A stretch of DNA of 40,065 nucleotides from a virus, in the IMG/VR virus record IMGVR_UViG_3300030107_005507, positions 10,941 through 51,005 of that record. The stretch is one strand, 5' to 3'. A program made the position numbers and the translations under genes. Under the pieces are notes generated by a model. That model saw only the letters and a list, made by a program, of their open reading frames with translations, made no database searches and had not been told where the DNA came from. The stretch's first letter is position 1; each line of letters begins with the position of its first letter. This document shows positions 1,080-39,794 of this stretch, in pieces.

Positions 1080-3500
1080 ATGGCAGAGTCTGGCATTAAA
1101 AGTTATTTTCCTAGTCAAACTGTAAGTGACGTTGAAAAATTAAGCGAAGAGTATGGTTTAAAAGTAGGTAAAGCTATAGAAACAGAGTGGTTTAATAATA
1201 ATAGAAACCTTAATAAATATAGATCCACTCAAAATAATTTTCATAATTTAAGATTGTACGCAAGAGGCGAGCAGTCAATACAAAAATATAAGGATGAGTT
1301 ATCTATAAACGGTGATTTGTCCTATTTAAATTTAGACTGGAAGCCAGTTCCTATTATTTCTAAATTTGTAGATATAGTTGTAAACGGTATAGCTGAAAGA
1401 ACTTATGATATAAAAGCGTTTTCTCAATCTCCAAATGGAATAGAAAAACGAACAGAATATATGGAATCAGTATTGAATGATATGCAATATAGAGATTTCG
1501 ATCAATTTGCTGCTGAAAATTTTGGTGTAAACACTAGAGAAAGCGAGGAAAAACAATTACCAGAAACACCTGAAGAATTACAACTTCACATGCAACTTAA
1601 TTATAAGCAAGCCGTGGAACTAGCTGAAGAACAAGCTTTAAATATGTTGTTTGAAGGCAATAACTACGAGTTAATAAAAAAGAGATTTTATTATGACTTA
1701 ACAGTTCTTGGTATAGGCGCTGTTAAAACATCTTTTAATACTTCTGAGGGTGTTGTGATAGATTATGTTGATCCAGCAAATCTAGTTTATTCTTATACAG
1801 ATTCTCCTTACTTTGAAGACATATATTACGTTGGTGAAGTTAAATCTATTCCAGTAAATGAATTAGCTAAGCAATTTCCTAATTTAACAGAAAGTGATTT
1901 AGAAGATATAATGAAAAATAAATCTTTTCATAGAAATAATAATAGTACTAGATTTTCTATTGATAAAGAAGATAACAACACTATTCAAGTTTTATATTTT
2001 AATTATAAAACATATATGAATGAAGTGTATAAAGTAAAAGAAACTGGAACTGGTGCTGATAAAATTATACCTAAAGATGATAAATTTAATCCCCCACCAA
2101 ACAAAGAAGGTGGTTACTCTAAACTATTAAGATCTATTGAGTGTTTATATGATGGTGCTATGATTCTTGGTACTGATAAATTACTTAAATGGGAAATGGC
2201 TAAGAATATGATGCGACCTAAAAGTGATTATACTAAAGTTAAAATGAATTACGCTATTGTGGCACCTAGAATGTATGATGGTAAAATTGATTCTTTAGTA
2301 AAACGTATAACTGGTTTTGCTGATATGATACAATTGACACATTTAAAATTACAACAAGTATTGTCAAGAATGGTTCCAGATGGTGTTTATTTAGATGCTG
2401 ATGGTTTAGCTGAAGTTGATTTAGGTAATGGTACAAATTACAATCCACAAGAAGCTTTAAACATGTTCTTCCAAACTGGCTCTGTAATTGGTAGATCATT
2501 TACACAAGATGGTGATATTAACCCTGGTAAAGTTCCAATACAGGAAATTACATCAGGATCTGGTGGAAATAAAATGCAAGCTCTTATTGGTAATTATAAT
2601 TATTATTTGCAAATGATAAGAGATGTGACTGGACTAAATGAAGCTAGAGATGGTAGTATGCCAGATAAAAACGCTTTAGTTGGTGTTCAAAAACTAGCTG
2701 CGGCAAATTCAAACACTGCAACAAGACATATATTACAAGCTGGTTTATATCTTACAGCTGAAACCGCCGAATGTTTAGCCTTAAGAATATCTGACGTATT
2801 AGAATATTCACCAACAGCTGATGCTTTTATACAAGCTATTGGAGCTCATAATGTAGCGACTCTAGAAGAAATGAAGGAATTACATCTTTATGACTTTGGT
2901 ATCTTTATAGAGTTACAACCTGATGAAGAAGAAAAAGCAATTCTTGAAAATAATATTCAAATGGCACTTCAACAGCAAAACATAGAGCTTGAAGACGCTA
3001 TTGATCTTAGAGAAATTAAAAATATTAAACTTGCAAACCAACTACTTAAAATACGTAGACAAAAGAAACAAGAAAAAGATAGACAGCTTCAACTAGAAAA
3101 TATTCAAGCACAATCACAATCTAATACTCAAGCCGCTCAAGCAGCTGCTCAAGTAGAAATGCAAAAAGATCAAGCTTTAACACAAACTAAATTACAATTA
3201 GAACAAGCTAAATCTCAATTAGAGTCTCAAAAAATGCAACAAGAAGTTATGCACAAAAAAGAACTCATGGAATTAGAATTCCAGTATAACATGCAACTTA
3301 AAGGAATTGAGGTTGAAGGAATGAAGGAGAGAGAAAAACAGAAGGAAGATAGAAAAGACGAGAGAACAAAAATACAAGCTACACAACAATCAGAAATGAT
3401 TGAACAAAGAAATAGTGGAAAACCACCTAAAAACTTTGAATCTGCAGGTAATGATATACTAGGTGGAGGATTTGATTTAGGTTCGTTTGACCCTAGTTAG
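1080..3500 (+). CDS. Portal protein
   Basis: An 806-residue protein between terminase and the scaffold-like protein, the expected place and size for a podovirus portal (the dodecameric ring at the packaging vertex). The first 640 residues or so look globular, with mixed alpha/beta composition. Residues from about 645 to 785 are extremely rich in Gln, Lys and Glu with heptad-like spacing (for example LQLEQAKSQLESQKMQQEV), predicting a long helix or coiled coil such as the barrel/crown of P22-type portals. The last 20 residues turn Gly/Phe-rich and contain FESAGND, a short peptide that recurs near the N-terminus of the next protein. The ATG lies 5 bases after the terminase stop, behind an A/T leader without a Shine-Dalgarno sequence. 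The call rests on order, size and C-terminal helix rather than a diagnostic motif. Confidence 0.75.
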   Translation: MAESGIKSYFPSQTVSDVEKLSEEYGLKVGKAIETEWFNNNRNLNKYRSTQNNFHNLRLYARGEQSIQKYKDELSINGDLSYLNLDWKPVPIISKFVDIVVNGIAERTYDIKAFSQSPNGIEKRTEYMESVLNDMQYRDFDQFAAENFGVNTRESEEKQLPETPEELQLHMQLNYKQAVELAEEQALNMLFEGNNYELIKKRFYYDLTVLGIGAVKTSFNTSEGVVIDYVDPANLVYSYTDSPYFEDIYYVGEVKSIPVNELAKQFPNLTESDLEDIMKNKSFHRNNNSTRFSIDKEDNNTIQVLYFNYKTYMNEVYKVKETGTGADKIIPKDDKFNPPPNKEGGYSKLLRSIECLYDGAMILGTDKLLKWEMAKNMMRPKSDYTKVKMNYAIVAPRMYDGKIDSLVKRITGFADMIQLTHLKLQQVLSRMVPDGVYLDADGLAEVDLGNGTNYNPQEALNMFFQTGSVIGRSFTQDGDINPGKVPIQEITSGSGGNKMQALIGNYNYYLQMIRDVTGLNEARDGSMPDKNALVGVQKLAAANSNTATRHILQAGLYLTAETAECLALRISDVLEYSPTADAFIQAIGAHNVATLEEMKELHLYDFGIFIELQPDEEEKAILENNIQMALQQQNIELEDAIDLREIKNIKLANQLLKIRRQKKQEKDRQLQLENIQAQSQSNTQAAQAAAQVEMQKDQALTQTKLQLEQAKSQLESQKMQQEVMHKKELMELEFQYNMQLKGIEVEGMKEREKQKEDRKDERTKIQATQQSEMIEQRNSGKPPKNFESAGNDILGGGFDLGSFDPS

Positions 3501-3528
3501 AATTTATTAATTATTATTATATTATATT
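3501..3528 (+). promoter_or_regulatory. A/T-only leader before the scaffold-like gene
   Basis: The 28 bases between the portal stop and the next ATG are A/T only and read ATTAATTATTATTATATTAT before the start. A near copy precedes the gene at 6306. There is no Shine-Dalgarno sequence. It could be an unstructured translation-start region typical of Bacteroidota or part of a phage promoter; sequence alone does not decide. Confidence 0.3.
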
Positions 3529-15500: not shown

Positions 15501-18500
15501 TGCTGGTGGTTCTGTAGTGCAATACGTTTATGGATGTATGGATCCGGCTGCGTTTAATTATGACGCAGGCGCAACGATAAATGAAACTTCTGAAACGGAT
15601 TCGAGTGATCCTTGTGTTGGTACTATACTAGGTTGTACAGATCCTCTAGCATACAACTATGGTGCCTCAGCTAACACTGACGATGGTAGTTGTTTATATC
15701 CTGGATGTACTGATGATGGTGTGGTATCGTTAGAAGTGTTATCTACTGGTACTGAAGTTTTACCAAATGACATGAGTCCATATCCAGGTGTTGCAGCAAA
15801 CAATCAAGATGCAAATGCTAATATTGCGTGTGGCCCTGTGGCTTACGAACCTTACACGGGTTATGGTTTTGCAAGTTATAATGAATGTTGTACTTATACG
15901 TTTCTTGGTTGTATGGATAGTACAATGTTTAATTACGATCCATTAGCAAATACGCCTGACACTTGTATTCCATTTGTGTATGGATGTATGGATCCGAATG
16001 CAGATAATTATGATTCTACAGCAAACACTGAAGATAGTTCTTGTGTTTACTCAGGATGTATAGCTCCTACTGCTGATAACTATGTTACAGCAAATCCTGG
16101 TCAAATAGCTGAGGGTGATGGTTGGGATGATTTAACAAACTATACTGGCGCTCCACATGGAGATCTTCTAGCTTTAATTGGCGACCCTAGTTATATTTAT
16201 CATCCATATGGTACTTTACCAGGTAGTCCATTTATTGGTACAAATTACGGTTGTCCAAATTGGAGTTTTGCTCCAACAATATTTGGAGACAATGGTCAAA
16301 ATCCACCCCAGAATGGAGTTGGTGTTTTAATACCTAGAATGGTAGAAACAGGTTATTGTACTTCAGAACCTTGGGTGGATGCTAATTGGCAACAATATGT
16401 AGATGGTTGTGACCCTACAATACCTTATCAATCTATTATACCTACTACTAGTATTATAAATACTGGAGGATTAACTAATGATCCTGGAATATTTGGTAAC
16501 AATCCACCTAATACAGATGATGGTCAAGGTGGGGTTTTACCAACTTGGCCGGATATATCTTACGCCATGGACATAAATGGTAATCAAATACCATTTACAC
16601 ATCAATGGTGGAATCTTGATAATAGTTTTAACCCTCTTAAACACATGGTAAATCCATTTCCACCATGCGCGACTCAAGATGATGGTAGTTGTGAATACAC
16701 AGGATGTTTTGATCTTTTAGCTGTAAATTATGATCCAAATACTACAATAGTTGATAATGCTACTTGTTTGTATTGTGGTGATCCCGCAAGTAACGTTATC
16801 AATAATGACGGCGCTTTATACCCTGACGCAACCCCGTATCAAGAAGGATGTATATATTGTCCAGGAGATAATCTTTCTACAGTTTTTAGCAATTGGGCAA
16901 CTAGCACTTCTTATTCTGATGGTACTTATTACGCGTGGGAGTATAATCCTACAGGTTCACAAATACAAATTAGTTTTGATGTATCAACTATAACTACACC
17001 AGGTTTTGTATATGATCCACGGGTACACAATTCAAATTATGATGCAGCTACAACTACTTGGCCAGCATTTGAGGGTGAGGATTACTGGTTTAGATCATAT
17101 TATAGAACGTCTGACACTGGGAGTGGTGCTGGTGTTTGGATACAAAATTCTTCATCTTTCAACGCGTTGGGATATGTAGATGCTACTCATGGAACTGATA
17201 ATTTAGGTAACACGGTTTATACTATGGCTCATGATGTAGTTGGTTTAACACCAGACACGGATTATGATTTTAAATACGAAATAACGTGCCATCCTGGAGG
17301 TGCCGCGACTGTTGTAACTGAAAACTTTAATCCTACAGAATTAATGGGTTTAACAACAGAATCAGGTCCTACTACTGGGTGTCGAGATGCGTTAGCAGTT
17401 AATTATTGTGATACTTGTACAGTTGCTGATAATAGTGTTTGTTTCTATGATGGTTGTACAATATCAACTTCTGATACTGGTGAAGCAGATGGTTTTTATC
17501 AAGGTGCCGCGGTTCCTTGTACTAATGGAAGTGACACTTATACAGGTGAGGCGCATCACTGGTGTAGTATTCAAGCGATAGCAGAAACCCATCCTGGTTA
17601 TCCAGGTAATTGGCAAGCACACGCGGGTATGTGGCGTTTGGGAGATGGACCGTTTGCTAATTTACCAGATAATTGTTGTAGTTTCATGGATTCAAACATG
17701 AATTTCTTGGAATTTAATGGGATACAGGGACAAGAGGGATATTATGGTTGTACAGATTCCACAGCTGTAAATTATTGTTCTGGTTGTACATATGATATAA
17801 AGGAACAAATTGGAGTACATTGGTGTGAGTATGATGGCTGTAATTATACGACAGTTGGTATAAATCCTGACGTTAATAATCATTGTTCTGACGCGGTATA
17901 TGATCATTTAACACAGACATATACTAGCAGTGGAACAGCTGTTACTTCAGTGACTTATGATGGCGGAACTACTTATGTTGACGAATGTATAGATGGTACT
18001 GGTGGTAATATCGGTTTTTTAGCTGAAAATCATGATCCAAAAGTAAACAACCACGTTGAATCTACTTATCTCTGCACGTTTGCTGGTTGTTCTGCGCCAG
18101 GATGTGATATAGGTTATGATTGGCCTGACCAACAACCAACTGGTGCTGATGCTTGCGAAGCGTTTGCTGGACCTGCTTTTGCTAGTCAACTATATGGTTA
18201 TCCTATGGATATGGCAGGTACAGCCGCGCCTAGTACAACAGCTGTTAATATTGGTGGAAGTGGACCGGGTTATTTGATGGGATTAAATACCGGTAACTTT
18301 CTTCCTAAAGGTTATAATAATGACTGGAATTATGCAGGTAACTACGATGCAGGATTTTGGAATACTAGCGACGATTCGGTACCAAGTCTAAATAGTGCCC
18401 AAAACCTGTGGTGGAATAATTATCAAATGGCTGTTATGTGTCATGATGCTAATAATTGTAGACCTTATAGAGAAACTTGTCAAAATCATCATGATACAAA

Positions 18501-24888: not shown

Positions 24889-27800
24889 ATGGAAGAACTA
24901 TATAGAGCTTTATATTCTAAATACGCTGGCAATTTAAGTCAGGAAGAGATAGATACCAAGATTGGGTATGCTTTACAGCAAGATCCTAATGACTTTGTAA
25001 ACGCTTTTTATCAAAAATATACTGGGAGTGGACCAAGTCAAGATCAACTAAAGTATATTAGTTCTATAATACCAGAAGTTGAGTCTTTAGAAAAAAAATC
25101 CCAGGAAGACGTAAGTTGGTTTGATCAAACATGGTTTGGTAGAGGTATAGCTGCCGCTAGCACAACCGGTGAGGCAACTGATTTAATGGCTGAAGATTTT
25201 TCTAATGTAAGTACAGAGACTATACAGGAGTTTATGAAGGCTAAAGAACAAGAGGCTAAAACGCATGTTCCATCCGAACGTATGGAAAAGTTTCAAAAAC
25301 AATATCAAAAAGAAGGTAAAACTTGGGCTGCGTTTTTTAGAGGTGTTAGAAAACAACCTGGTTTGTTACCAGAGTTATTTGTACAGTCTTTAGGTACACA
25401 AATTGGTACAGCTTTTGATTCTCCCGGCGCTTCATTAAGCGCTGCAGGAACAGGTGCGTTAGCTGGTGGAGCGATGGGTGGTGTATTTGGTGGTATTGCT
25501 GGGGCGATGGGTGGTTTAGCCACGTCTATGGAGGCAGCTTTAACATTTGGTGAGTTAATAGAAACTGAATTAAAAAAAGAAGGTAAAGAGTTTTCAGATA
25601 AAAACATAAAAGAATTATTAGAAGGACCAAAAGGAAAATCAATAAGAAATAAAGCTATTGGTAGAGGTCTTGCTATTGGTACTATAGAAGGCTTTACTGG
25701 TGGTTTAGCTGGTAAAGCAGCTTTAGCTACTAAGGGCGCGGTTGCAACCGCTAGAGCTGGTAAAGTTGGTAAAAGAGGTTTGTTAGCTGCTGGTGCTGTT
25801 GGTACTGGTGTTGAGGCTATTGGAGGTGGTACTGGTGAAATCGCCGGTAGATTAGCCGCTGATCAAGAAATGGATCCAGCTGAAATTGGTTTTGAAGCTA
25901 TAACAGGTACAGTAACAGCACCTATAAATGTTGGTGGTGCTTTATTAATGGCTAAAGACGCAAAGTACTATCTTAACGATATGAAAAACCCTGTTACTTA
26001 TGCTCAAATGAAAGACTTTGTTGAGACAGCAGATGATATCGATGTTGCTAAAGCTAAAATAAAAATAGAAAATGATTTTACTGGTTTAGGTAAGTTAGCT
26101 AAAAAGAAACAAAATGACGCCATAATAAAATCTCAGATTGATGATAAAATAACAGACCAGAAAGATAGAGAAACTTTAGTTGATTTGGCTAAAAAAAGAG
26201 ATAATGCAAAGTGGGATCTTAAAAAAGAAGGTGTTAACCAAGTTCCTGGAGCTGAAAAAGCTTTGGCAGATATTGAATCTCAAATTAATGATATAATAAG
26301 TAAATATGAAGGAGCAACTGATGTTGCCGCTACACAAGAAGCAGCTGACGTTAGAAAAGCTAGAAGAGATATTAGTGTATCTGAAACTATAGCCTTTGCA
26401 GAGACCAAAGGTAATTTAATAGGAAAAGATGTTAAAGTAGTAGATAATGATCAAGCTGCTCAAGAAGCTGCAGATAAATTAGGTTATAAAGGAAACGTTC
26501 AAGGTTCTGATGGATTTATTATTGGTGACTCTATTATTATAAACAAAGACGTAGCTGGTAGAAAAGGTGCTATTAATGTTGGTGCTCATGAGTTGTTACA
26601 TGGCATTATGGCAAAACATTTAAAAAGTCTTGTTAAAAAAATAAAAAATAAAGATGGTAAAGTTATTAGTGAAGATAAAACTGAACTAAAAAAGTTTGTA
26701 AGTGATTTTAAAAACTTCTTAAGTGATAAACAAAGAAAGTGGATAGAAAACGAGATAATAACAAACTATCAAGATCAAATAAAAGAAGCAGAGGCAAAGG
26801 GTGAAAACTTTTTAGAAACTACAGACGAGTGGTTTAATAAGTTTATAGATGGTATAGCTACAGAGCAAATAACTTATGACGAAAGTTCTTTTTCAAAATT
26901 AAAAAGTTTTTTTGAAAGAATATTTAGAAAATTTGGTTACAACAAAGAATTTGGTAGTGGTAGACAAACTTACGACTTTTTAAAAGACTATCAACAAAGC
27001 GCCGCAAAAGGCGAACTTAGCGCTAGAGCTCAAGCTGTTGCTGGAGTTGAGGTTACTAGCACTAAACCTAAAAAAGAAAAAGCAAGATATAGTGATAAGC
27101 AAGTTCCTGTTAAAACAGAAGAGTTTAAAGTTACCACAACAGATGGTGATGTTATAATATATAAAGCCACCACTCGTTTAGATGGAACAATTGAATGGAC
27201 TAAAAAAGGTAAAAACGACACTATATTTGTGCCTACTAAAGTAGTAGATAGTAGTATAATGCAAAGAGATAATATATCTCCAAGACAAGCTATGGAAGTT
27301 TTTGAAAAAGCTGGAGACAAGGTAGAAGTAGGAAAGGTTGGAGACTATAAAACAGTTATGAATCCTAAAATGTTTGATAGATTAACTTCTGATCAACAAC
27401 AAAGAGTAGATCCTAAAAGAGCAAAAGAAGTAAAAGGAGAAGCAAAGTTTTCTAAATCTAATGTACAGGGTGTGTTAGAAGAGTACGGTGGAAAAGAAGC
27501 TACTAAACCTGATCTTAGACGTATGGTTAACGAAACGTTAATGAGAACTCCACAAGGTAAAGAAACTTTTGACATAACAAAATCTAGATTTGGTTTAGAA
27601 ATAGAACCTATAGTAGAAGCTATAACGCAAAGGCTTTACGATAAAATACCAAGTGATGCAACTCGTGCTGCTGGACTTACAAGAGCAGATTATAAAAACG
27701 CTTTAGTTTCTGAAGCTGCTACAATGACTCAACGAGAGTATAACCCGACAATTCAAGATCTTGACAAGTTTATTAGTAATAGATTGAATAATCGAGCGGA

Positions 27801-30800
27801 AAGTTTAGCTAAAAGATTAGGTGTTGAAGAAAGAATATTAAAAGATGTTGATTTTGTAAAAGAAACAGAGATTGATGTTGATGTACAACCTACACCAAAA
27901 CCAAAACCAACGAAAAAAGAAAAACCTAGGGTGTTAAAAAGTTTAGCCGATATCACTCTTGATAATAAAGAAATAATATCTGCAACAGCGAGAGTTGAAA
28001 TACAAAATTTAATAAAACAAAATCCTAAAAACTTAGAAGAACAGTTAACAAAACTTATTGAAAAGAATATTACTAAAGCTATTCAAAAACAAATGGGTGG
28101 AATTAGCTTTAAAAATGGAGAGGTTATTATTAGTGAAGAATATAAAGCTTTTATGGCTAATAACTACAGTGATATAGTTCAAAGTTTAGATGTAAACACT
28201 ATAAAAAATAATTATAAAACATTATTTGATCTTACTAAAATAGGTAAAGAAGACAAAGTAACAAGAAAAGAAGATAAACCTACTCTTAAAAAAGATAGTT
28301 ATTATAGGAAGGATATATATAAAATAGAAACTAATAAAGCTAAATTCACAAAGTTTTTTATAGATCCAACTAGTAATGTTAAACCACAATCTCATTATAA
28401 TAAATTAAGAGATAGACAGTATAAACTAGCACTACAAATAGCTAATGGTATAACTGAAGATATTATTAATAATGAAATTATAAATACTTCAAGTGATATA
28501 GATGTTGTTATAAAAGCTGAAATAACTAATTATGCAAACAAATTAAATAAGCAGAAAAATGAAGTTATAGGAAACTACGCTGATCAGGTTAAGTTTTCAA
28601 AAAAGAATGCTAGTGATTTTAACGCCTTAATCACAGAGGCTGTTTTTGGTGATATTGAAAGCGCTAGATATCAAGCTATAGTCGCACAAACTAACCCGCG
28701 TATAGTTAAGGAAGCCGAAAGGGTTATTGGAGAATATAATCTTGATAACCAAAAAGAAACTGCTGGGTTTAAACAAAGGATTAAAGACAATCCAAATATA
28801 CCACAAGAAATAAAAGAAAAATATTTTAGTCGTCTTACAAATAAAAACCACCAAGAGTCCATAGATGAAATGACAGATTTTACAACTGATATGGCTGCTT
28901 TTATGGATCCTGAATTTGTACTTAACATGTACGAAGATATGTTTGGTTTTCAATATAGATATGCTGATAAAAATCGTAATGGTCAAAAGGCATATAATAA
29001 AATACAGGATACAGCTAAAAAACAAAAGACTAATAGTAAGTTTAAAGAAATATTTGGTTTTGATCCTGAAACAGCAAAGCAATTTATGTATAATTCTAAG
29101 ATTGGGATAATGAATAGAATTAATACAGTTCTTAAAAAAGCATATCCAACAATTAAAGAAAAACTTAATGCTGTATTAGAAAAAGAAGGTAAAAATATAG
29201 AACAAGCTAACAAACAAAATCCTAAAGTATTAGAATATATAATAACCAAAGCTATTCAAGCGGTTAATAAAAACTCAAACAACATGGTTGGCGTGTTGAG
29301 ATGGTTAGAATCTGCTACAAATACTGTTAAGGGATTAAGAGCATTAACGGGTTTAACACATATAGATATTATAGCTGAATCTCAAGAGGCTTCAACAAAA
29401 CACCCTGATTTTAAAAGAGCTAAAAAAGATGCTTTAAAAAGAATCAATGAAAGTAAAAAAACACAAGGCTTAAAAGAGTCTGTAAAAGAAGCTTTAGCTA
29501 AAGAAGCTGCTTTAAAAAAGTTAAATACAAAAGGTGAGCATTTAACACCTAGCGCGAATTTAATGGAAAAGCTTGCTGAGATAATATATAAATATTCTAA
29601 ATTAGACATGACTGACGTTAGTGTTTTGTCTAAGTTTAAATCAGAATTAAGAGAAACAACAAAAGATTTTAATCAAGCTTTAGGCAATAAAAATACTTTT
29701 GATATTGTTGACAATACCATGGGCCCTCAAGCTGAGGGAGATGTTAGGTTAATTACAGGGTTAAAAGATACTGGTAGATCAAAAAGATTTTATCACATTA
29801 GTGGTGCGCAGTCAGTTGGTTATATTGCTAGAACAATAACACAAAGTAAAGAATTTAAAAAACTATCTGATAAAGTAGATAAAGCAGCTAGATTAAATAA
29901 TGCTGTTAAAATGTCTAGGTCTACGTTTAAGAAAAATTTTGACTTACGTCAAGCTCAAAAACAAAAAGGTAAAGAATTTGTTGAATCAATATTAAAAAAA
30001 CCTAAAGGTATTACTGTTTTAGATTTTGATGATACGCTAGCCACAACTAAATCTTTAGTTAGATTTACAGCTCCAGATGGTACAACAGGTACTTTAAATG
30101 CTGAGGAGTACGCTAGTACATATCAAGATTTATTAGAACAAGGGTATACATTTGATTTCTCAGAATTTAATAAAGTTGTTAAAGGTAAAATAGCGCCGCT
30201 TTTTCAGAAAGCTTTAAAGTTACAAAAGAAATTTGGTCCAGAAAGTATGTTTGTATTAACAGCTAGGCCACCAGCAGCACAAAAAGCTATATTTGATTTC
30301 TTAAAAGCTAATGGTTTAAATATACCTATTAAAAATATTACTGGGCTTGGTAATTCAACATCGGAAGCTAAAGCGCTTTGGGTTGCAGACAAAGTTGGTG
30401 AAGGTTTTAATGACTTTTATTTTGCAGATGATGCTTTACAAAACGTACAAGCTGTTAAAAACATGCTAGATCAATTCGATGTTAAATCTAAAGTTCAGCA
30501 AGCTAAGGTTAAGTTTAGTAAATCAATGAATAATGATTTTAATAAAATACTTGAAGACGTAACTGGTATAGAATCTAAAAAAAGATTTTCAGCTATTAAA
30601 GCTAGAAAACGTGGGGAAAGCAAAGGTAAATTTAGATTTTTTATACCACCATCACACGAGGACTTTGTTGGTCTATTATACAATTTTATGGGTAAAGGTA
30701 AAAGAGGTAATGAGCATAGAAATTTCTTTGAAGAAGCTTTAATTAGACCATTAAATAGAGCGTATAGAGAGTTAAACGCTGCCAAACAATCTATAGCTAA

Positions 30801-32571
30801 TGATTATAAATCTTTAAACAAGCAGTTTGCAGATGTTAAAAAGAAACTAACTAAGAAAACTCCAGATGGTGATTTTACATATCAAGATGCGATAAGAGTT
30901 TATTTGTTTGACAAACATGGTCACGAGGTACCCGGTTTATCTTCAACTGATCAACAGAATTTAGTTGACTTAGTTATGGGTGATCCTGAGTTACAAACGT
31001 ATGCTGAAACTTTAAATGTAATATCTAGGCAAGATAAATATGTTGCTCCTACTGAAAGTTGGGAAGCTGGAGATATAAGAACAGATTTAGATGATGCTAC
31101 TGGTAGAATTGGTAGAAAAGAATTTTTCACTGAATTTAATGATAATTCTGATATAATATTTTCACAAGAAAACTTAAATAAAATAGAGGCTGCTTATGGT
31201 GCTGATGTTGTTAGTGCTATTAAAGACATGTTATATAGAATACAGACTGGTCAAAATAGACCTAGTGGGCAAAATGCTTTAGTTAATAAGTTTCTAAACT
31301 ATTTAAATGGATCTGTTGCCTCTACAATGTTCTTTAATATAAGATCAGCTGTTCTACAGCAAATGTCTATGGTTAATTTTATAAACTTTGCTGATAATAA
31401 TATTATAGCAGCAGCTAAAGCTTTTGCTAATCAAAAACAATATTGGACTGATTGGGCAACTATATTTAACTCTGACTTTATGAAGCAAAGACGTAAAGGT
31501 ATACAAACAGATGTTAATGGAGCTGAATTAGCTGCGTCAGTTAAAAATGCTAAAAATCCAGTTCAAGCAGCGATTAAAAAATTATTAGAATTAGGATTTT
31601 TACCGACACAAATTGGGGATAATATAGCTATTGCTACTGGTGGTGCTACGTTTTTAAGAAATAGAATCAATACTTATTTAAAACAAGGATTGAGTCAAAA
31701 AGAAGCAGAAGCAAAAGCATTTGTTGATTTTGAAATATTAGCAGAAGCCACCCAACAATCAGCGAGACCAGACATGGTTTCACAACAACAAGCATCTCCA
31801 CTTGGTAAAGTTATACTTGCTTTTCAAAACGTAACCTCTCAATTTAATAGATTAGGTAAAAAAGCATTTTTAGATCTTAAAAACAGAAGAATAACACCTG
31901 GTAACCAAACTCAGTTACAAAGTGATATGTCTAATTTATCCAGGATAGCTTATTATTTTGCAATACAGAACTTGGTATTTTATTCTTTACAATCAGCATT
32001 GTTTATGATGATGTTCGATGATGACAAAGATGATGAAAAGTTTTTAAAGAAAAAAGAAAGAATGATTAACGGTAGTATCGATTCTGTATTAAGAGGTTCT
32101 GGTGTTTGGGGAGCAGCTATCGCTACACTAAAAAATATGGCTATTAAATGGCACGAGCAAAGAGATAAAGGTTATAACGCTGATGAAAGCGCTGTATTAA
32201 TGGAAATGTTAAATGTATCACCTCCACTTGGTATTAAAGCTAGAAAACTAGTTAATGCTGAAAAAACTCTTAACTATAATAAGAAAACTATAGATGAAAT
32301 GGAAACGTTTGATATTGATAATCCTCAATGGTCGGCCTATACTAATTATATAGAAAGTACTACAAATGTTCCACTTAATAGATTGTATAATAAAACAATG
32401 AACGTAAGAGAATCCTTAAATAATCAACATAGTGCTTTAGAAAGAGCTTTAATGTTTGGTGGTTGGAGCAAATGGAACCTTGGAATCGAAGATGTAGAAA
32501 AAGAAAAAAAGAAGCAAGGATTTGGTATTAAAAAGAAAAGCAAAGGTAGAGGTACTTTGCAGGTTTATTAG
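24889..32571 (+). CDS. Giant polyvalent internal virion protein (zincin-like + HAD-like domains)
   Basis: A 2560-residue protein, last of the internal-core set (T7 gp16 position). Visible parts in order: an N-terminal helical region; a Gly/Ala-rich hydrophobic block (about 180-352) suited to membrane insertion; HELLH at 567-571 in AHELLHGI, a zinc metallopeptidase signature; and long helical Lys-rich regions. A HAD phosphatase-like domain follows at about 1700-1865, with LDFDDTLA (D1712, D1714), VLTARPP (T1791), candidate K1828 and FADDALQNV (D1847, D1848). A conserved block starts RFFIPPSHEDFVGLLYNFMG (about 1915). Late hydrophobic segments lie near 2354-2375. Short (A/V)(K/R)(F/Y)S(K/D) links recur at 732, 852, 1234 and 1874. 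The architecture fits the polyvalent proteins described by Iyer, Burroughs and Aravind: multidomain proteins injected with phage DNA. No transglycosylase motif was recognised. Confidence 0.75.
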   Translation: MEELYRALYSKYAGNLSQEEIDTKIGYALQQDPNDFVNAFYQKYTGSGPSQDQLKYISSIIPEVESLEKKSQEDVSWFDQTWFGRGIAAASTTGEATDLMAEDFSNVSTETIQEFMKAKEQEAKTHVPSERMEKFQKQYQKEGKTWAAFFRGVRKQPGLLPELFVQSLGTQIGTAFDSPGASLSAAGTGALAGGAMGGVFGGIAGAMGGLATSMEAALTFGELIETELKKEGKEFSDKNIKELLEGPKGKSIRNKAIGRGLAIGTIEGFTGGLAGKAALATKGAVATARAGKVGKRGLLAAGAVGTGVEAIGGGTGEIAGRLAADQEMDPAEIGFEAITGTVTAPINVGGALLMAKDAKYYLNDMKNPVTYAQMKDFVETADDIDVAKAKIKIENDFTGLGKLAKKKQNDAIIKSQIDDKITDQKDRETLVDLAKKRDNAKWDLKKEGVNQVPGAEKALADIESQINDIISKYEGATDVAATQEAADVRKARRDISVSETIAFAETKGNLIGKDVKVVDNDQAAQEAADKLGYKGNVQGSDGFIIGDSIIINKDVAGRKGAINVGAHELLHGIMAKHLKSLVKKIKNKDGKVISEDKTELKKFVSDFKNFLSDKQRKWIENEIITNYQDQIKEAEAKGENFLETTDEWFNKFIDGIATEQITYDESSFSKLKSFFERIFRKFGYNKEFGSGRQTYDFLKDYQQSAAKGELSARAQAVAGVEVTSTKPKKEKARYSDKQVPVKTEEFKVTTTDGDVIIYKATTRLDGTIEWTKKGKNDTIFVPTKVVDSSIMQRDNISPRQAMEVFEKAGDKVEVGKVGDYKTVMNPKMFDRLTSDQQQRVDPKRAKEVKGEAKFSKSNVQGVLEEYGGKEATKPDLRRMVNETLMRTPQGKETFDITKSRFGLEIEPIVEAITQRLYDKIPSDATRAAGLTRADYKNALVSEAATMTQREYNPTIQDLDKFISNRLNNRAESLAKRLGVEERILKDVDFVKETEIDVDVQPTPKPKPTKKEKPRVLKSLADITLDNKEIISATARVEIQNLIKQNPKNLEEQLTKLIEKNITKAIQKQMGGISFKNGEVIISEEYKAFMANNYSDIVQSLDVNTIKNNYKTLFDLTKIGKEDKVTRKEDKPTLKKDSYYRKDIYKIETNKAKFTKFFIDPTSNVKPQSHYNKLRDRQYKLALQIANGITEDIINNEIINTSSDIDVVIKAEITNYANKLNKQKNEVIGNYADQVKFSKKNASDFNALITEAVFGDIESARYQAIVAQTNPRIVKEAERVIGEYNLDNQKETAGFKQRIKDNPNIPQEIKEKYFSRLTNKNHQESIDEMTDFTTDMAAFMDPEFVLNMYEDMFGFQYRYADKNRNGQKAYNKIQDTAKKQKTNSKFKEIFGFDPETAKQFMYNSKIGIMNRINTVLKKAYPTIKEKLNAVLEKEGKNIEQANKQNPKVLEYIITKAIQAVNKNSNNMVGVLRWLESATNTVKGLRALTGLTHIDIIAESQEASTKHPDFKRAKKDALKRINESKKTQGLKESVKEALAKEAALKKLNTKGEHLTPSANLMEKLAEIIYKYSKLDMTDVSVLSKFKSELRETTKDFNQALGNKNTFDIVDNTMGPQAEGDVRLITGLKDTGRSKRFYHISGAQSVGYIARTITQSKEFKKLSDKVDKAARLNNAVKMSRSTFKKNFDLRQAQKQKGKEFVESILKKPKGITVLDFDDTLATTKSLVRFTAPDGTTGTLNAEEYASTYQDLLEQGYTFDFSEFNKVVKGKIAPLFQKALKLQKKFGPESMFVLTARPPAAQKAIFDFLKANGLNIPIKNITGLGNSTSEAKALWVADKVGEGFNDFYFADDALQNVQAVKNMLDQFDVKSKVQQAKVKFSKSMNNDFNKILEDVTGIESKKRFSAIKARKRGESKGKFRFFIPPSHEDFVGLLYNFMGKGKRGNEHRNFFEEALIRPLNRAYRELNAAKQSIANDYKSLNKQFADVKKKLTKKTPDGDFTYQDAIRVYLFDKHGHEVPGLSSTDQQNLVDLVMGDPELQTYAETLNVISRQDKYVAPTESWEAGDIRTDLDDATGRIGRKEFFTEFNDNSDIIFSQENLNKIEAAYGADVVSAIKDMLYRIQTGQNRPSGQNALVNKFLNYLNGSVASTMFFNIRSAVLQQMSMVNFINFADNNIIAAAKAFANQKQYWTDWATIFNSDFMKQRRKGIQTDVNGAELAASVKNAKNPVQAAIKKLLELGFLPTQIGDNIAIATGGATFLRNRINTYLKQGLSQKEAEAKAFVDFEILAEATQQSARPDMVSQQQASPLGKVILAFQNVTSQFNRLGKKAFLDLKNRRITPGNQTQLQSDMSNLSRIAYYFAIQNLVFYSLQSALFMMMFDDDKDDEKFLKKKERMINGSIDSVLRGSGVWGAAIATLKNMAIKWHEQRDKGYNADESAVLMEMLNVSPPLGIKARKLVNAEKTLNYNKKTIDEMETFDIDNPQWSAYTNYIESTTNVPLNRLYNKTMNVRESLNNQHSALERALMFGGWSKWNLGIEDVEKEKKKQGFGIKKKSKGRGTLQVY
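28588..28689 (+). repeat. Internal repeat A of the polyvalent protein
   Basis: Encodes residues 1234-1267, starting VKFSKKNASDFNALITEAVF and continuing GDIESARYQAI. It aligns with residues 1874-1906 (30508-30606), sharing VKFSK, DFN, IES, an aromatic residue after Arg, and AI.A. DNA identity is low, so the duplication is old or convergent. Confidence 0.65.
30508..30606 (+). repeat. Internal repeat B of the polyvalent protein
   Basis: Encodes residues 1874-1906, starting VKFSKSMNNDFNKILEDVTG and continuing IESKKRFSAI. It is the partner of the copy at 28588-28689. It lies between the HAD-like domain and the conserved RFFIPPSHEDF block, so it marks a domain junction. Confidence 0.65.
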
Positions 32572-32605: not shown

Positions 32606-33685
32606 ATGGTAAGAAGATTAATAATATTGCTACTACTTATATCTAATATAATGGTAGCGCAAACATTTGGAAAAGAAGAGATTAAAGATCTGTTAAAGTT
32701 CTCTACATTCTATGCCGCTGTAAACGGTGGAACATCACTTTCTGACGTTGATATATTCTCTGTAGATAATGGTTTATCTACACAGACTATTTCAACTCCT
32801 TATGATTATAATTTTACCATAGGTTTACGTAAGATAGCGAGGTTTGGCTATGAAAATAAAGCACAAACATTTTATGATGGAACGGAATCTAATTATAGTG
32901 ACGCGGCCACTGTAGGTAAAGTTAGAGGAGTTGAATATCTATTTGAGGTTGATTACAAAAGACAAGAAGGTGTAGACTATATGGATCAGCACCATTTTAT
33001 TAGGTTTAGCTCTGATGATGGTTGTCCAGATGAATTATGTGTAAACTTTTTTGCTTTAAAACTGGAATATTTAGAAGATGGTTTTGCCGATATAAAATAT
33101 TTTGAAGCATCAGAGAGATATAGACATCGTAAAGGTAGAAACTTATCGTGGAATATTGGATTAACGCACCGTTTGGCAGAACCATATGGTTATAACGCTT
33201 TAGATGAATGGATGTTAAACAATGGTAATATTCATTATACTTATTTAGCATTACAAGAGGGTTATACGGTAGATGTGTATAGCAACGAATACTTTGCGCC
33301 AGATGGAACTTTAGTTGCAACTAGTGCTGAGGTTTGGGAGGCGGTTGTAATACCAACAGTACTATCAGACTATACTCAAAAGAAAAGAAACGAATTAAAG
33401 AAAACAATTCAACACTCATTAGTAATGGGGTTTGATTATTATAAATACTCTAAAAAAACTTGGATGCACGCTTGGGCAAGTTTTATGCCATATCATTACG
33501 ATGATGGTAGTGAGTTTTCATATCATAATTATGTAGATGGACAATGGTATGATTACTCTGGAGGATTAATCTACGGGATAAAAGTAAATAAAAGCTTAGG
33601 TTATTTTGTAGAAGGTAAATACAATAAGTACTGGAATAGAGAATGGTACGATTTTAAATTAGGATTAAATTACGTTATATTTTAA
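32606..33685 (+). CDS. Phage-encoded outer-membrane protein (signal peptide, beta-rich)
   Basis: A 359-residue protein with a clear Sec signal peptide: MVRR, hydrophobic LIILLLLISNIMV, and probable cleavage after AQ near residue 20. The mature part is rich in alternating Tyr/Phe/Trp strands and Asp/Asn/Gly turns (YDYNFTIGLRKIARFGYEN, GVEYLFEVDYKRQEG, KTWMHAWASFMPYHYDDG, GLIYGIKVNKSLGYFVEG). It ends KLGLNYVIF, a terminal aromatic typical of outer-membrane beta-barrels recognised by BAM. This is odd for a virion-gene cluster: it should reach the host outer membrane late in infection. Plausible roles are superinfection exclusion, receptor masking or lysis support; none is shown. It lies 34 bases after the polyvalent gene and 1 base before the next gene. 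Confidence 0.65.
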   Translation: MVRRLIILLLLISNIMVAQTFGKEEIKDLLKFSTFYAAVNGGTSLSDVDIFSVDNGLSTQTISTPYDYNFTIGLRKIARFGYENKAQTFYDGTESNYSDAATVGKVRGVEYLFEVDYKRQEGVDYMDQHHFIRFSSDDGCPDELCVNFFALKLEYLEDGFADIKYFEASERYRHRKGRNLSWNIGLTHRLAEPYGYNALDEWMLNNGNIHYTYLALQEGYTVDVYSNEYFAPDGTLVATSAEVWEAVVIPTVLSDYTQKKRNELKKTIQHSLVMGFDYYKYSKKTWMHAWASFMPYHYDDGSEFSYHNYVDGQWYDYSGGLIYGIKVNKSLGYFVEGKYNKYWNREWYDFKLGLNYVIF

Positions 33686-33686
33686 C

Positions 33687-33968
33687 ATGGCAAAAGAATT
33701 AAATGAAGAGACAGGTTTTGTACTAAGTGTAAAAACTATGATAGCTATAGGTTTTGGTATGGCTACAATTATTGGAATGTGGTTTGCTTTACAAGCAGAT
33801 ATTGCTGAAGCAAAAGAATTACCTGTAATACCACCAGATGAAGTTACTAGAATGGAATTCAATATGAAAGATCAGATGATCCGTAATACTATTATGGACA
33901 CGCAAAAAGATGTGGAAGAAATTAAAGGTACTTTAGAAAAAATAGAAGATAAACTATACAATAGATAA
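33687..33968 (+). CDS. Small one-pass membrane protein with C-terminal coiled coil
   Basis: A 93-residue protein. Residues 1-15 are polar, about 16-36 (VKTMIAIGFGMATIIGMWFA) form one transmembrane helix, and the remainder is acidic and helical with heptad-like KDVEEIKGTLEKIEDKLYNR at the end. Topology, size and proximity to envelope and lysis genes fit an inner-membrane spanin-like subunit or a class III-like holin, but no motif decides. Its stop overlaps the next start by one base (TAATG), indicating translational coupling. Confidence 0.6.
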   Translation: MAKELNEETGFVLSVKTMIAIGFGMATIIGMWFALQADIAEAKELPVIPPDEVTRMEFNMKDQMIRNTIMDTQKDVEEIKGTLEKIEDKLYNR

Positions 33969-34294
33969 TGAGAAAATTAATATTTTTATTAATGTTATTT
34001 TGTGGTACTACCTCTGCCCAAATAAAAGTAACACACTTCAATGCTGGTTGGAATAGTGCTAACGATGTAGAGTGGTATATGGATCTTGAAGATTGTAAAA
34101 CAATAGGGCATGTTGATATAGCAAAAGATACAGAGGCACAAAAAGAATATAAAATAGCAGTTGTACCTACTATTATTATATTTAAAGATGGAGAGGAAGT
34201 TGCTAGATTTCAAGCAGATCTTAGTTTTAAAATGGTGGCAACAGAAGAAGAAGTACAAGAAGAAATAGATAATCAATTAATGAGTGATTTCTAA
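33968..34294 (+). CDS. Exported thioredoxin-fold protein lacking the CxxC active site
   Basis: A 108-residue protein with an N-terminal signal peptide (MRKLIFLLMLFCGTTSAQ; Cys12 is not in a lipobox) followed by a thioredoxin-like fold: beta strand KVTHFNAGW, helix, strand IGHVDI, then the characteristic cis-Pro strand AVVPTIIIFKDGEEVARF with V66-P67-T68. Where thioredoxins have W-C-G-P-C, this has W28-N29-S30-A31-N32, so both redox Cys are gone; the only mature Cys is C43. It therefore cannot do ordinary dithiol chemistry and is more likely a binding or chaperone-like protein. It overlaps both neighbours by one base (TAATG and CTAATG), so it is translated with the membrane protein and the nuclease. 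Confidence 0.7.
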   Translation: MRKLIFLLMLFCGTTSAQIKVTHFNAGWNSANDVEWYMDLEDCKTIGHVDIAKDTEAQKEYKIAVVPTIIIFKDGEEVARFQADLSFKMVATEEEVQEEIDNQLMSDF

Positions 34295-34662
34295 TGTATA
34301 CTTATAACATAAAATTAGATAGAGTTATTGATGGTGATACTATTGATGCTTATATAGATTTAGGTTTTGATATTCATGTCAAAAAAAGAATTAGGTTTAT
34401 GGGGATTAATACTCCAGAATCAAGAACTAGAGATTTAGAAGAAAAAGCGAGGGGATTAGCTGCTAAAGATAGATTAAAAGTTATATTAGAAGGTGCTAAT
34501 AGGATAGAACTATGCTCATATGGTGTTGGAAAATATGGTAGATGTTTAGGTGAATTACACGTGGACATGCTAGATGGAAAAGAATGTTTGACTCTAGCAA
34601 ATGTAAATGAATTATTAATCAAAGAAGGTCATGCTGTAGAGTATGATGGAGGAAAAAGATAA
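34294..34662 (+). CDS. Staphylococcal nuclease-family (thermonuclease-like) protein
   Basis: A 122-residue protein of the SNase family, which cleaves DNA and RNA in a calcium-dependent way. Family motifs are intact: RVIDGDTIDA (D13-G14-D15-T16), RFMGINTPE with R34 and E42 matching the catalytic Arg35 and Glu43 of the S. aureus enzyme, and GKYGRCLGEL with R83 matching catalytic Arg87. The OB-fold strand order is visible. No signal peptide is present, unlike the secreted bacterial enzymes, so it should act in the cytoplasm, for example on host DNA or RNA, or be packaged. It starts on the last base of the thioredoxin-like stop and is followed 4 bases later by the Cys-rich mini-gene. Confidence 0.85.
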   Translation: MYTYNIKLDRVIDGDTIDAYIDLGFDIHVKKRIRFMGINTPESRTRDLEEKARGLAAKDRLKVILEGANRIELCSYGVGKYGRCLGELHVDMLDGKECLTLANVNELLIKEGHAVEYDGGKR

Positions 34663-34666
34663 AATT

Positions 34667-34768
34667 ATGAAAGAAAAATTTTGTAAATGGATACAAGCAA
34701 TAACATTTGGATTAGTTTGTTTTAATTGGTGTGTATGTTGCTGCGAACCGGGTAAGTGTTGTAAATAA
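34667..34768 (+). CDS. 33-residue cysteine-rich mini-protein
   Basis: An ATG-started frame of 34 codons ends TAA at 34766-34768, overlapping the next ATG by one base (TAATG). The product starts MKEKFCKWIQAITFGLVCFN and ends WCVCCCEPGKCCK: a short hydrophobic helix of about 15 residues followed by a CVCCC...CC cluster, eight Cys in 33 residues. The tight coupling on both sides, and a start that fills the gap between two real genes exactly, support it as a gene. It could be a membrane-anchored metal-binding or lipidated peptide. I do not recognise a family. Confidence 0.55.
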   Translation: MKEKFCKWIQAITFGLVCFNWCVCCCEPGKCCK

Positions 34769-37638
34769 TGAAAAAGTTATTACTACTATTATTACTACCT
34801 ATATTTAGCTTTGGACAAATTGATACTTTTCCATGGGTAAATAATTTTGAATCATTTGTAGATTTAGAACAAGACCAAAATGATGATGGTGATTGGTGGT
34901 TAATGCAAGGACCAACCGGTAGTTTTGGTACTGGTCCAAGCGGTGATCATACCACTGGTTTTGGTATATATTCTTATGTAGAATCGTCATACCCAAACTA
35001 TCCTAATAAACAGTTTGTATGTTACACGCCTGAATTTGATGTTTCAGCTACTCCTGGTAGAATGTTATCTTTCTGGTACCATATGTATGGTATAGGCATG
35101 GGAGAGCTCGAGATTGCAGCTATAGATAGTATGGGTAACTATATATTTATAGACGCAATATTTGGTAACCAAGGTGATCAATGGCACTTTACACATTATC
35201 AATTAGATAGTTTTAATATACAAAATAACTTTAAAATAGCATTTATAGCCACTACTGGAACTGGTTTTACTAGTGACTTTGCTATTGATGATATAATGGT
35301 TTCTAATCCGTTCCCAGTAATATACGGATGTACAGATACAATATGTAGTAATTATGATTCAGTAGCTACTATTAATGATGGAAGTTGTATTTACATCTTT
35401 GGATGTATGGATAATAACGCTGATAATTATAATCCATGGGCAAATGTAGACGATGGAACATGTGCCCAGCAAGTTGTATGTACACCTGGTTTATCTTTAA
35501 TAGATGTAGCTATAACTTTAGATAATTGGCCAAGTGAAACATCTTGGATGTTATATTCTCCAACAGATACATTTGCTTTTGTTGATAACGAAACATATGA
35601 TTACACTCAAACTGGACAAACAGTTCATACACAAGCTTGTGTTCCAGTTGGTGATACTATTTTATTTGCAATATATGATACTTATGGAGATGGTATCGGT
35701 GGTGGGTCTGTAGTTGGTAATTGTGTTGTAACTAATATTAGCTGCGGAGAAGTTATATATGATTTATCAGCTCAAAATTTTCCAGCACCATCTAACTTTG
35801 GTTACGATGATTATTCATTACCTTATGTTTCTCCAAGTTGTAGCGATACTGTAATATTTGGATGTACAAACCCTAGTTATATAGAATATGATTCTTTAGC
35901 TACAGATGATGATGGAAGTTGTATGACATTAGCTACTTATGGTTGTACAGATCCAGCCGCTTTTAATTACGATCCTACAGCAGATAAAATGCTGTTAACA
36001 TCACCTTGTACTTATAATTTAATATTATATGATGCTGGTGGTGATTCTTGGGGTAACTGTTGGTTAGGTGTAGAACAAGCAGATTCATTATGGCAATTTA
36101 AAATTGACAACAATGGTGTTTATTCAGATACATTTGCTTTAACACTTAATTCTAACGATGAGGTTTATTTCTATTATTTTGAAATCCCTACAGCTCAACA
36201 AAATCCTCAACAACTAGATATACAAACAATACAAAATTCATTTAAGTTAGAAAACGATTACGGGACTATAATACACGAAGGTGATAATCCTTGGCCTGGT
36301 CCAAATGAAAATAAATTAAGAAATTATAGAACTGCTAATGATATTTATTCTGCAATACCTTATTGTGGGGACGAATGTATACCGGTTGTAAATGGATGTA
36401 TGGATGCTATAGCTTATAACTATAATAGCTTAGCAAATACCAATGACACATGTTATTATGATCCTGGTTGCACAAATCCAGGTTATTTAGAATATTATAC
36501 TCAAGGATATATAGCTGATGTAAATGATAGTAGTTGTTCTGTTTTAGCTATGTTTGGATGTATGGATTCAACAGCGTTTAATTATGATAGTACAGCAAAC
36601 GTAGATAATGGTGGTTGTATCCCGGTTATTATGGGTTGTATGCTAGATGGCGCGTTTAATTATAATCCTAATGCTAACACACCTGATACTTGTATACCAA
36701 TTATATATGGTTGTACATCGCCTATAGCTTTGAATTATGACAGTTTAGCTAATACAGATGATGGTAGTTGTGTTGGTGTTGTTTACGGGTGTACTAATCC
36801 CGATGCTTTCAACTTCAACCCACTTGCTAATGTTGATGACTCAAGTTGCGTTCCAGTGGTTTACGGTTGTACAGACCCAATTATGTTTAATTACAATGTA
36901 TTAGCTAATGTTGATAATGGTTCTTGTGAACCTTATGTTTACGGCTGTACAGACTCAATAATGTTTAATTATGATCCTCTAGCTAACAGTGATAACAATT
37001 CTTGTATACCTTTTATATATGGTTGCACGGACCCTTCTATGCTTAATTATAACTCACAGGCAAACACGGAGGATTTTAGTTGTATCGCTTATGTGTATGG
37101 GTGTATGGATAGTACTGCTCTTAACTTTGATTCACTTGCTAACACGGATAACGGTTCATGTATCGAAATCATTATGGGTTGCATGGATCCAGACGCGTAT
37201 AACTATGAGTCAATTGCTAATGTTAATGACTCTATATCTTGTTTATATAATGCTGGTTGTATTACTGGTGCGGGTAATCCTTATTGGTTAAATGATCCTT
37301 GTTATGCTTGGGTATTATCAGTAGATGATTACTGTTGTGAAAACGAATGGGATAGTATATGTCAATTAACTTACAACTATTGCGATAGCTCTTGGACTGG
37401 TCCAATACCAACAAGAGAAGGTTTAGATAATTATATAGTAATTTATCCAAATCCAACTAAAGACAAAGTAAATATAAATAAAAACGTTGATATAAACGTG
37501 TATAATTATATCGGAGATATGGTAATATCAAAACGGAATATAAATGTCTTAGATATGTCTAAAATGAATTCTGGGGTGTATATGTTACAAATAAAATACA
37601 AAAACAAAATAATAACAAAACAATTAATTAAAAAGTAA
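34768..37638 (+). CDS. Type IX-secreted repeat protein (signal peptide, MAM-like, 15 GCxD repeats, T9SS type A domain)
   Basis: A 956-residue exported protein. It has a signal peptide (residues 1-16, MKKLLLLLLLPIFSFG) and a MAM/jelly-roll-like domain (about 20-180, MLSFWYHMYGIGMGELEI, SDFAIDDIMVSNP). About 15 copies of GC(T/M)D...(F/L)NY...AN.DDGSC follow, interrupted by beta domains at about 240-345 and 415-530. Copies 7-15 are tandem (596-825). A CC....WD.IC motif (856-865) precedes a type A T9SS sorting domain (888-956: IYPNPTKDKVNI, VYNYIGDMV, MNSGVYMLQIKYKNKIITKQ, LIKK). In Bacteroidota that domain targets cargo through the outer membrane for surface attachment or release. The phage thus directs a host nanomachine to export it. 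A surface decoy, adhesin or exclusion factor is possible; the function is unknown. Confidence 0.85.
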   Translation: MKKLLLLLLLPIFSFGQIDTFPWVNNFESFVDLEQDQNDDGDWWLMQGPTGSFGTGPSGDHTTGFGIYSYVESSYPNYPNKQFVCYTPEFDVSATPGRMLSFWYHMYGIGMGELEIAAIDSMGNYIFIDAIFGNQGDQWHFTHYQLDSFNIQNNFKIAFIATTGTGFTSDFAIDDIMVSNPFPVIYGCTDTICSNYDSVATINDGSCIYIFGCMDNNADNYNPWANVDDGTCAQQVVCTPGLSLIDVAITLDNWPSETSWMLYSPTDTFAFVDNETYDYTQTGQTVHTQACVPVGDTILFAIYDTYGDGIGGGSVVGNCVVTNISCGEVIYDLSAQNFPAPSNFGYDDYSLPYVSPSCSDTVIFGCTNPSYIEYDSLATDDDGSCMTLATYGCTDPAAFNYDPTADKMLLTSPCTYNLILYDAGGDSWGNCWLGVEQADSLWQFKIDNNGVYSDTFALTLNSNDEVYFYYFEIPTAQQNPQQLDIQTIQNSFKLENDYGTIIHEGDNPWPGPNENKLRNYRTANDIYSAIPYCGDECIPVVNGCMDAIAYNYNSLANTNDTCYYDPGCTNPGYLEYYTQGYIADVNDSSCSVLAMFGCMDSTAFNYDSTANVDNGGCIPVIMGCMLDGAFNYNPNANTPDTCIPIIYGCTSPIALNYDSLANTDDGSCVGVVYGCTNPDAFNFNPLANVDDSSCVPVVYGCTDPIMFNYNVLANVDNGSCEPYVYGCTDSIMFNYDPLANSDNNSCIPFIYGCTDPSMLNYNSQANTEDFSCIAYVYGCMDSTALNFDSLANTDNGSCIEIIMGCMDPDAYNYESIANVNDSISCLYNAGCITGAGNPYWLNDPCYAWVLSVDDYCCENEWDSICQLTYNYCDSSWTGPIPTREGLDNYIVIYPNPTKDKVNINKNVDINVYNYIGDMVISKRNINVLDMSKMNSGVYMLQIKYKNKIITKQLIKK
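36556..37242 (+). repeat. Tandem array of nine 24-residue GCxD repeats
   Basis: Encodes residues 597-825 of the T9SS cargo protein: nine adjoining units of about 24 residues (72-78 bases), for example GCTSPIALNYDSLANTDDGS, GCTDPIMFNYNVLANVDNGS and GCMDSTALNFDSLANTDNGS. Codons differ between units, so the array is not a recent slippage product. Each unit has Cys at both ends and an acidic DDGSC-type loop. Confidence 0.85.
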
Positions 37639-39338: not shown

Positions 39339-39794
39339 ATGATAAGCGAACATATTTCATATAAGGAAGGCGTGTATAGCATAACAGCGACACGATTAGG
39401 AATAGATAACACACCAGGAGATGATCAACTTCATTTCATGGAAATAATAGCTGAAAAAGTATTTGAACCTCTTAGAGAATGGGTTGGTGGTCCAATAAAG
39501 ATTAATAGTTTTTATAGATGTTCTGAGCTTAACAAGGCTATAGGTGGGTCTGCAACATCACAACATTGTAAAGGTCAAGCTATGGATATTGACGATACGC
39601 TTGGTAGAGCTACAAACGCTGAAATGTTTAATTGGATAAAAGAGAACTTAGATTTTGATCAAATGATATGGGAATTTGGAGATGATGATAATCCTGATTG
39701 GATTCACGTGAGTTATGTATCGGAAGAAAAAAATCGTAATAGATGTTTGAGAGCTCATAGATATAATGGTAAAACAACTTATGGAGTAATTTAA
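39339..39794 (+). CDS. Peptidase M15-family endolysin
   Basis: A 151-residue zinc peptidase of the D-Ala-D-Ala carboxypeptidase / L-alanyl-D-glutamate peptidase type (M15A-like), which cuts peptidoglycan stem peptides for lysis. It shows FYRCSELNKAIGG, then SQHCKGQAMD with H76 and D83 as zinc ligands, and WIHVSY with H123 as the third ligand, preceded by FDQMIWEFGDDDNPDW. Length matches single-domain M15 lysins. No signal peptide is present, so export would need a holin; the 93-residue membrane protein at 33687 is a candidate. It starts 12 bases after the previous stop. Confidence 0.85.
   Translation: MISEHISYKEGVYSITATRLGIDNTPGDDQLHFMEIIAEKVFEPLREWVGGPIKINSFYRCSELNKAIGGSATSQHCKGQAMDIDDTLGRATNAEMFNWIKENLDFDQMIWEFGDDDNPDWIHVSYVSEEKNRNRCLRAHRYNGKTTYGVI

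Follow-up and report, generated by a model that had tools for sequence, protein, structure and literature searches.

A phage envelope cassette with a candidate type IX secretion cargo suggests viral remodeling of the flavobacterial cell surface

Phage-encoded cargo of the type IX secretion system (T9SS) has been reported before (PMC7468147 and PMC6949934). Cryophage, a Bacteroidetes phage (Nat Commun 2020), encodes proteins that carry type A sorting domains of the T9SS, and its authors proposed that the host T9SS is used for secretion, competition, or superinfection exclusion (PMC7468147). The Cryophage proteins belong to three separate cargo types (endoglucanase, GH39, and PA14) and are encoded by variable genes (PMC7468147), whereas the family described here is one orthologous late gene, stable within a four-gene envelope cassette and bearing a second tag type. 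The portion of a Viruses 2019 report on which we draw describes crAss-BACON ORFs that have a T9SS sorting domain and lie near head genes of Bacteroidetes phages; it deals with BACON repeats on gut phage contigs, and within that portion no linked barrel or thioredoxin (Trx) protein is reported (PMC6949934). An earlier note on this DNA took in neither of these prior reports, nor the cassette partners (barrel, Trx fold, and coiled coil), nor the second tag type.

Among bacterial proteins, NucA of the F. johnsoniae T9SS (8glk_D) has its tag in common with the phage cargo, but its passenger is unrelated. Type A substrates of marine Flavobacteriales share both the tag and GC[T/M]D repeats with the cargo; those that we found lack the near-invariant terminal CCENEWD motif, which was absent from all bacterial relatives checked. 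Another parallel is offered by phage outer-membrane proteins that mask receptors, such as T5 Llp, a small lipoprotein. The likeness would lie in the proposed principle, namely that a phage-made surface protein blocks adsorption. In the open literature on T9SS and phages, we found no earlier reports of such cargo beyond these two, and no earlier description of the conserved cassette, of its spread between phage types, or of the exchange of type A with a short tag.

The window analyzed here is a stretch of 40,065 nucleotides from a 51-kb viral record (IMG/VR IMGVR_UViG_3300030107_005507), in which every large gene, from the portal gene through the endolysin gene, lies on the + strand. The portal gene (1080..3500, +), which serves as lineage marker, matches PHROG 6547 (E = 2e-151) and has relatives in cultured flavophages: its product is 54% identical to the portal of an unclassified Manatee Spring podovirus, 48% to that of Maribacter phage Panino, 44% to that of Elemovirus, and 36% to that of the Cellulophaga Pervagoviridae. 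Judged by this match, the source contig is a podovirus. Because its portal relatives are phages of Flavobacteriia, as are the nearest cultured phages, Flavobacteriia are the most likely hosts; SprA is present in 124 of 148 Flavobacteriales genomes. There are two giant late ORFs, 9523-19134 (3203 aa) and 24889-32571 (2560 aa), the former with a weak match to the crAss muzzle C-terminal domain crAss_MUZ_C (28.1 bits; cut-off, 27), which, beside the portal relatives named above, is the observation that bears on membership in the Crassvirales. The late block ends with an endolysin gene of the peptidase M15 type (39339..39794, +; PF08291, 56.3 bits; PHROG 894, lysis).

The cargo gene, placed after a giant late ORF, is a complete ATG ORF of 956 aa at 34768..37638 (+) in the ORF listing of the window; we annotate its product as a T9SS-tagged surface or secreted protein. 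It had previously been read as a signal peptide, a MAM-like domain, about 15 Cys-containing repeats, and a complete type A sorting domain, and each of these elements was borne out. The N terminus, MKKLLLLLLLPIFSFG followed by Q at +1 (signal at 34768..34815), is a Bacteroidota-style Sec signal by a sequence rule. The same simple rule finds a Sec-type signal in 46 of 48 complete cargo relatives, versus 134 of 664 other ORFs on the same contigs, a background that takes in the secreted cassette partners. The MAM domain (residues 31-179; 34858..35304) scores 68.8 bits against PF00629 (E = 6e-19), and Foldseek likewise retrieved MAM structures. It is followed by 15 GC[T/M]D...NY...DDGSC repeats (residues 187-804; 35326..37245) in a protein with 46 Cys in total: two repeats come directly after MAM, then inserted beta domains with further repeats, and then a nearly continuous run of them. 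A near-invariant Cys-rich end domain (CITGxGNPYWLND..CYAWV..VDDYCCENEWD.ICQ; 37252..37386), defined by the invariant columns of the family alignment, precedes a linker and the type A tag, which extends up to the stop. The AlphaFold model of the whole cargo is weak (pLDDT, 68.9), and a whole-family cargo profile had no match in the PDB.

The type A sorting domain lies at the very C terminus (residues 892-956 of 956; 37441..37635). Both models against which the C terminus was compared scored above cut-off: PF18962 with 42.3 bits (cut-off, 27; E = 1e-10) over residues 892-954, and TIGR04183 with 36 bits (cut-off, 23; E = 5e-9) over residues 892-956. A profile built only from phage tags retrieved PDB entries 8glk_D (48.9 bits) and 8glj_D (41.1 bits). 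Modeled by AlphaFold with a pLDDT of ∼80 to 90, the tag reproduces the beta-sandwich fold of solved substrate tags; it superposes on 8glk_D, the tag of NucA in a solved T9SS complex, with an rmsd of 2.4 and a TM score of 0.73 over 72 columns. The lack of a significant match to a sorting-domain model, which the earlier note had named as grounds for refutation, thus does not apply.

A pattern search yielded 55 IMG/VR contigs with a relative of the cargo. None of the patterns drew on the tag region, and a C-terminal tag was nonetheless found in all 55: 12 are of type A and 43 are short. Type A is thus present in these 12 and in the window protein, and 13 of 47 aligned members matched TIGR04183 and PF18962. 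In 43 whole viral records, exactly one protein per record scored above the tag cut-off (12 type A, 31 short, and none with both). N-terminal architecture is more variable: the MAM domain occurs in 15 of 47 relatives, and many others have different N-terminal domains in its place. Neither kind of tag was found in any of the seven named phage relatives searched, so the cassette is dispensable for the lineage as a whole.

The short tag, 'ITDLLGR...LLFYIYDDGTVEKKLIK', has the consensus KKLIxITDLLGRPxKxxKNKLLFYIYxDGTVEKKLIK. It is not recognized by Pfam or NCBIfam, its bearers fall below the TIGR04183 and PF18962 cut-offs, its comparison with the type A profile was not significant (hhalign probability, 2%), and it had no match in the PDB. 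On a tree of the passenger, with the tag left out, there are 11 changes of tag label, and well-supported branches force at least 8 of them; recombination within the repeats could inflate this count. The mean for shuffled labels equals the observed 11. Since changes are as frequent as in shuffled labels, type A and short tags appear interchangeable, and exchange is directly visible in near pairs that carry different tags (L016/L041 and L021/L037). Purifying selection acts on the codons of the tail in most of the pairs that could be measured, although a more distant pair gave a less clear value (0.68). The simplest account of such a tag, never lost from any member and exchanged for nothing but another host tag, is that it serves as a working address label.

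Bacteria carry the short tag as well. Of 148 Flavobacteriales genomes sampled, 56 contain it, one of them with as many as 49 hits, and the genomes that have it are mostly 0.8 to 2 Mb in size. In each of the 15 bacterial cases inspected, 0 to 5 residues separate the end of the tag from the stop, and most of those 15 proteins have a signal peptide where the N terminus is present. SprA is encoded in 55 of the 56 short-tag genomes and TIGR04183 proteins in all 56, whereas the short tag occurs in 1 of 24 genomes without SprA, a contrast that is confounded by reduced genomes of 0.6 Mb. A bacterial GC-repeat protein (L082) likewise ends in the short tag; a swap comparison on a bacterial DUF1028 passenger had too few tagged orthologues to be informative. 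Our working hypothesis is that the short tag probably represents a second class of T9SS sorting signal. Because its profile shows no significant similarity to that of type A, the case for such a role is built on tag exchange and genome context.

Three further genes accompany the cargo as an envelope cassette. The first (32606..33685, +) encodes a putative outer-membrane beta-barrel-like protein of 359 aa with a signal peptide. Its AlphaFold2 model, of moderate confidence (pLDDT, 70.9), has ∼12 long antiparallel strands, and its top Foldseek matches are outer-membrane barrels (BamA, NanC, and FapF), which places it at the level of class, with no one family singled out. The nearest viral fold match of the barrel is an unnamed protein, A0A516LKJ4 (TM score, 0.63); in many barrel relatives the signal region is rich in Cys (CSAPKKCCSQ) and might represent a lipobox. 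The second gene (33687..33968, +) encodes 93 aa in which, as read from sequence, a single transmembrane segment leads into a charged, coiled-coil-like helix. The third (33968..34294, +) encodes an exported Trx-fold protein of 108 aa (PF00085, 25.1 bits; cut-off, 23.5) with FNAGWNSAND in place of CXXC; because CXXC is lost, it is unlikely to be an oxidoreductase. Linkage to the cargo across 32 well-flanked loci is close to complete: 32 for the barrel, 32 for the Trx-fold protein, and 31 for the coiled coil. An SNase-like nuclease without a signal peptide (34294..34662, +; PF00565, 40.3 bits; PHROG 452, endonuclease) is a variable neighbor, present at 8 of 32 loci. A tiny Cys-rich peptide of 33 aa (MKEKFCKWIQ...CVCCCEPGKCCK; 34667-34765) lies directly upstream of the cargo.

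The same four genes, in another order, are found on a 43-kb contig (L132-L134; G124 contig 32) that was binned with a flavobacterial genome and that also encodes a contractile tail sheath, a tail tube, and a DnaB-like replicative helicase. A second contig (L058), likewise binned in a flavobacterial MAG and from a similar contractile-tailed phage, with the same helicase type and a ribonucleotide reductase small subunit, carries the cargo as well. Linkage in two unrelated phage types argues for a joint function. Of 148 Flavobacteriales genomes, 1 contained the barrel, located on the contractile-tailed phage contig, which argues that the cassette is a property of phages; a search across 395 genomes of the phylum, run without a positive control, found no barrel. 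When the barrel, the coiled coil, and the cargo of the contractile-tailed phage were compared with annotated phages, no cassette relative was retrieved, only repeat matches, and no further contractile-tailed carrier emerged when the 43 viral records were searched for a tail sheath.

We propose that the cargo is one part of a four-part envelope cassette (barrel, Trx fold, coiled coil, and surface protein) that would move as a unit between unrelated phages. Late in infection, the cargo would be made and carried by Sec into the periplasm, where the Trx-fold protein may help it to fold; the host T9SS translocon would recognize the C-terminal tag and deliver the protein to the outside of the infected flavobacterium, and the barrel may then serve to anchor or display it there. 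The surface altered in this way, chiefly by masking or occupation of receptors, would keep other phages or sister virions off the dying cell and its debris. We give this whole explanation (a late T9SS-exported cargo, an envelope cassette, and surface change by receptor masking) a probability of roughly 0.6. Its parts differ in strength. Use of the host T9SS by the phage is well supported, as far as sequence evidence reaches; from the anatomy of the protein we infer that the cargo is exported during infection, and the barrel is presumably its partner or anchor. Taken by itself, receptor masking as the surface function is doubtful. The locus suggests that the virus remodels the surface of the infected cell. 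We advance tentatively, at somewhat below even odds, the wider claim of a mobile four-gene surface-remodeling system whose T9SS-exported cargo, with barrel and helper, switches between type A and an undescribed class of T9SS signal used on dozens of marine Flavobacteriales proteins. The earlier note had proposed a phage late gene for a T9SS-routed protein; the sorting-domain models, the fold, the tag in 55 of 55 relatives, selection, and tag exchange all favor that proposal, while the step of export during infection would follow from the protein's anatomy. The roles that the note put forward for the protein (a coat on the infected cell, a block to superinfection, or glue for virions) are candidates.

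The domains of the cargo would also fit an adhesin that makes infected cells or released virions cling to one another or to particles or algae and brings more contact with new hosts: MAM, the Cys repeats, and the other beta domains are of adhesive type, the N-terminal domains differ among relatives as in binding proteins, and the bacterial relatives are large T9SS surface proteins. Such a role is, however, compatible with the T9SS-exported surface cassette and not separable from it by sequence; as an account of its own, we regard it as unlikely, if still a serious candidate. The neighborhood invites a different reading, as a lysis or envelope-disruption module in which the coiled coil would act like an inner-membrane spanin, the barrel together with the surface protein would help to breach the outer membrane, and the wall would be cut by the M15 endolysin. 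All cassette partners are envelope proteins, the 93-aa protein has i-spanin topology, and the block immediately precedes the endolysin gene, both in the window and in many relatives. Yet a recognizable endolysin is near in only 16 of 32 loci, versus 32 of 32 for barrel and Trx-fold protein, no o-spanin lipoprotein was identified, and it is hard to see what part a large multidomain adhesin that carries a surface-sorting tag would play in such a module, which we consider quite improbable.

If the cargo were instead a virion protein such as a fiber, its tag would be a relic of host-gene capture. Related Cys repeats do occur in large phage proteins (L016:899-5251 and L021:3-7328), GC repeats of this kind are found in a cyanophage S-CAM3 protein annotated as virion structural, and the position of the cargo gene behind a giant late ORF would suit a structural protein. 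The host of S-CAM3 is not known to have a T9SS, and the repeats may therefore act in virions. For the cargo, we rejected this reading as very unlikely: the signal peptide would take the protein out of the cytoplasm, the site of virion assembly, and a tag that is kept throughout the family, held under purifying selection, and swapped at least 8 times for another host tag is unlike a relic. That bacterial DNA was misassembled into a phage contig, named in the earlier note as a way for its proposal to fail, is hardly credible and was likewise rejected. The nearest nonviral relatives of the cargo are indeed bacterial T9SS proteins, large surface proteins, but the linkage is conserved across 55 separate viral contigs in a conserved phage neighborhood, the portal is 65 to 88% identical in 30 of 43 viral records, and the CCENEWD motif sets the phage proteins apart from their bacterial relatives.

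Were the T9SS-exported surface cassette to be confirmed, a secretion route specific to Bacteroidota would be a standard part of infection, more than an occasional passenger gene; infected cells in the sea would bear virus-made surfaces, and superinfection in these phages would gain a testable handle. If the short tag is a sorting signal, a C-terminal tag that had gone unrecognized would enlarge the predicted secretome of small-genome marine Flavobacteriales by many proteins. The short tag (ITDLLGR...LLFYIYDDGTVEKK) ends many proteins in such genomes, including genomes G001, G002, G003, G016, and others (loci L093-L108). Apart from the cassette, one viral contig of the set appears, by eye only, to encode a phage GroEL, in two ORFs that may reflect a frameshift, together with GroES (L002:2130-2558, 2603-3637, and 3621-3878).
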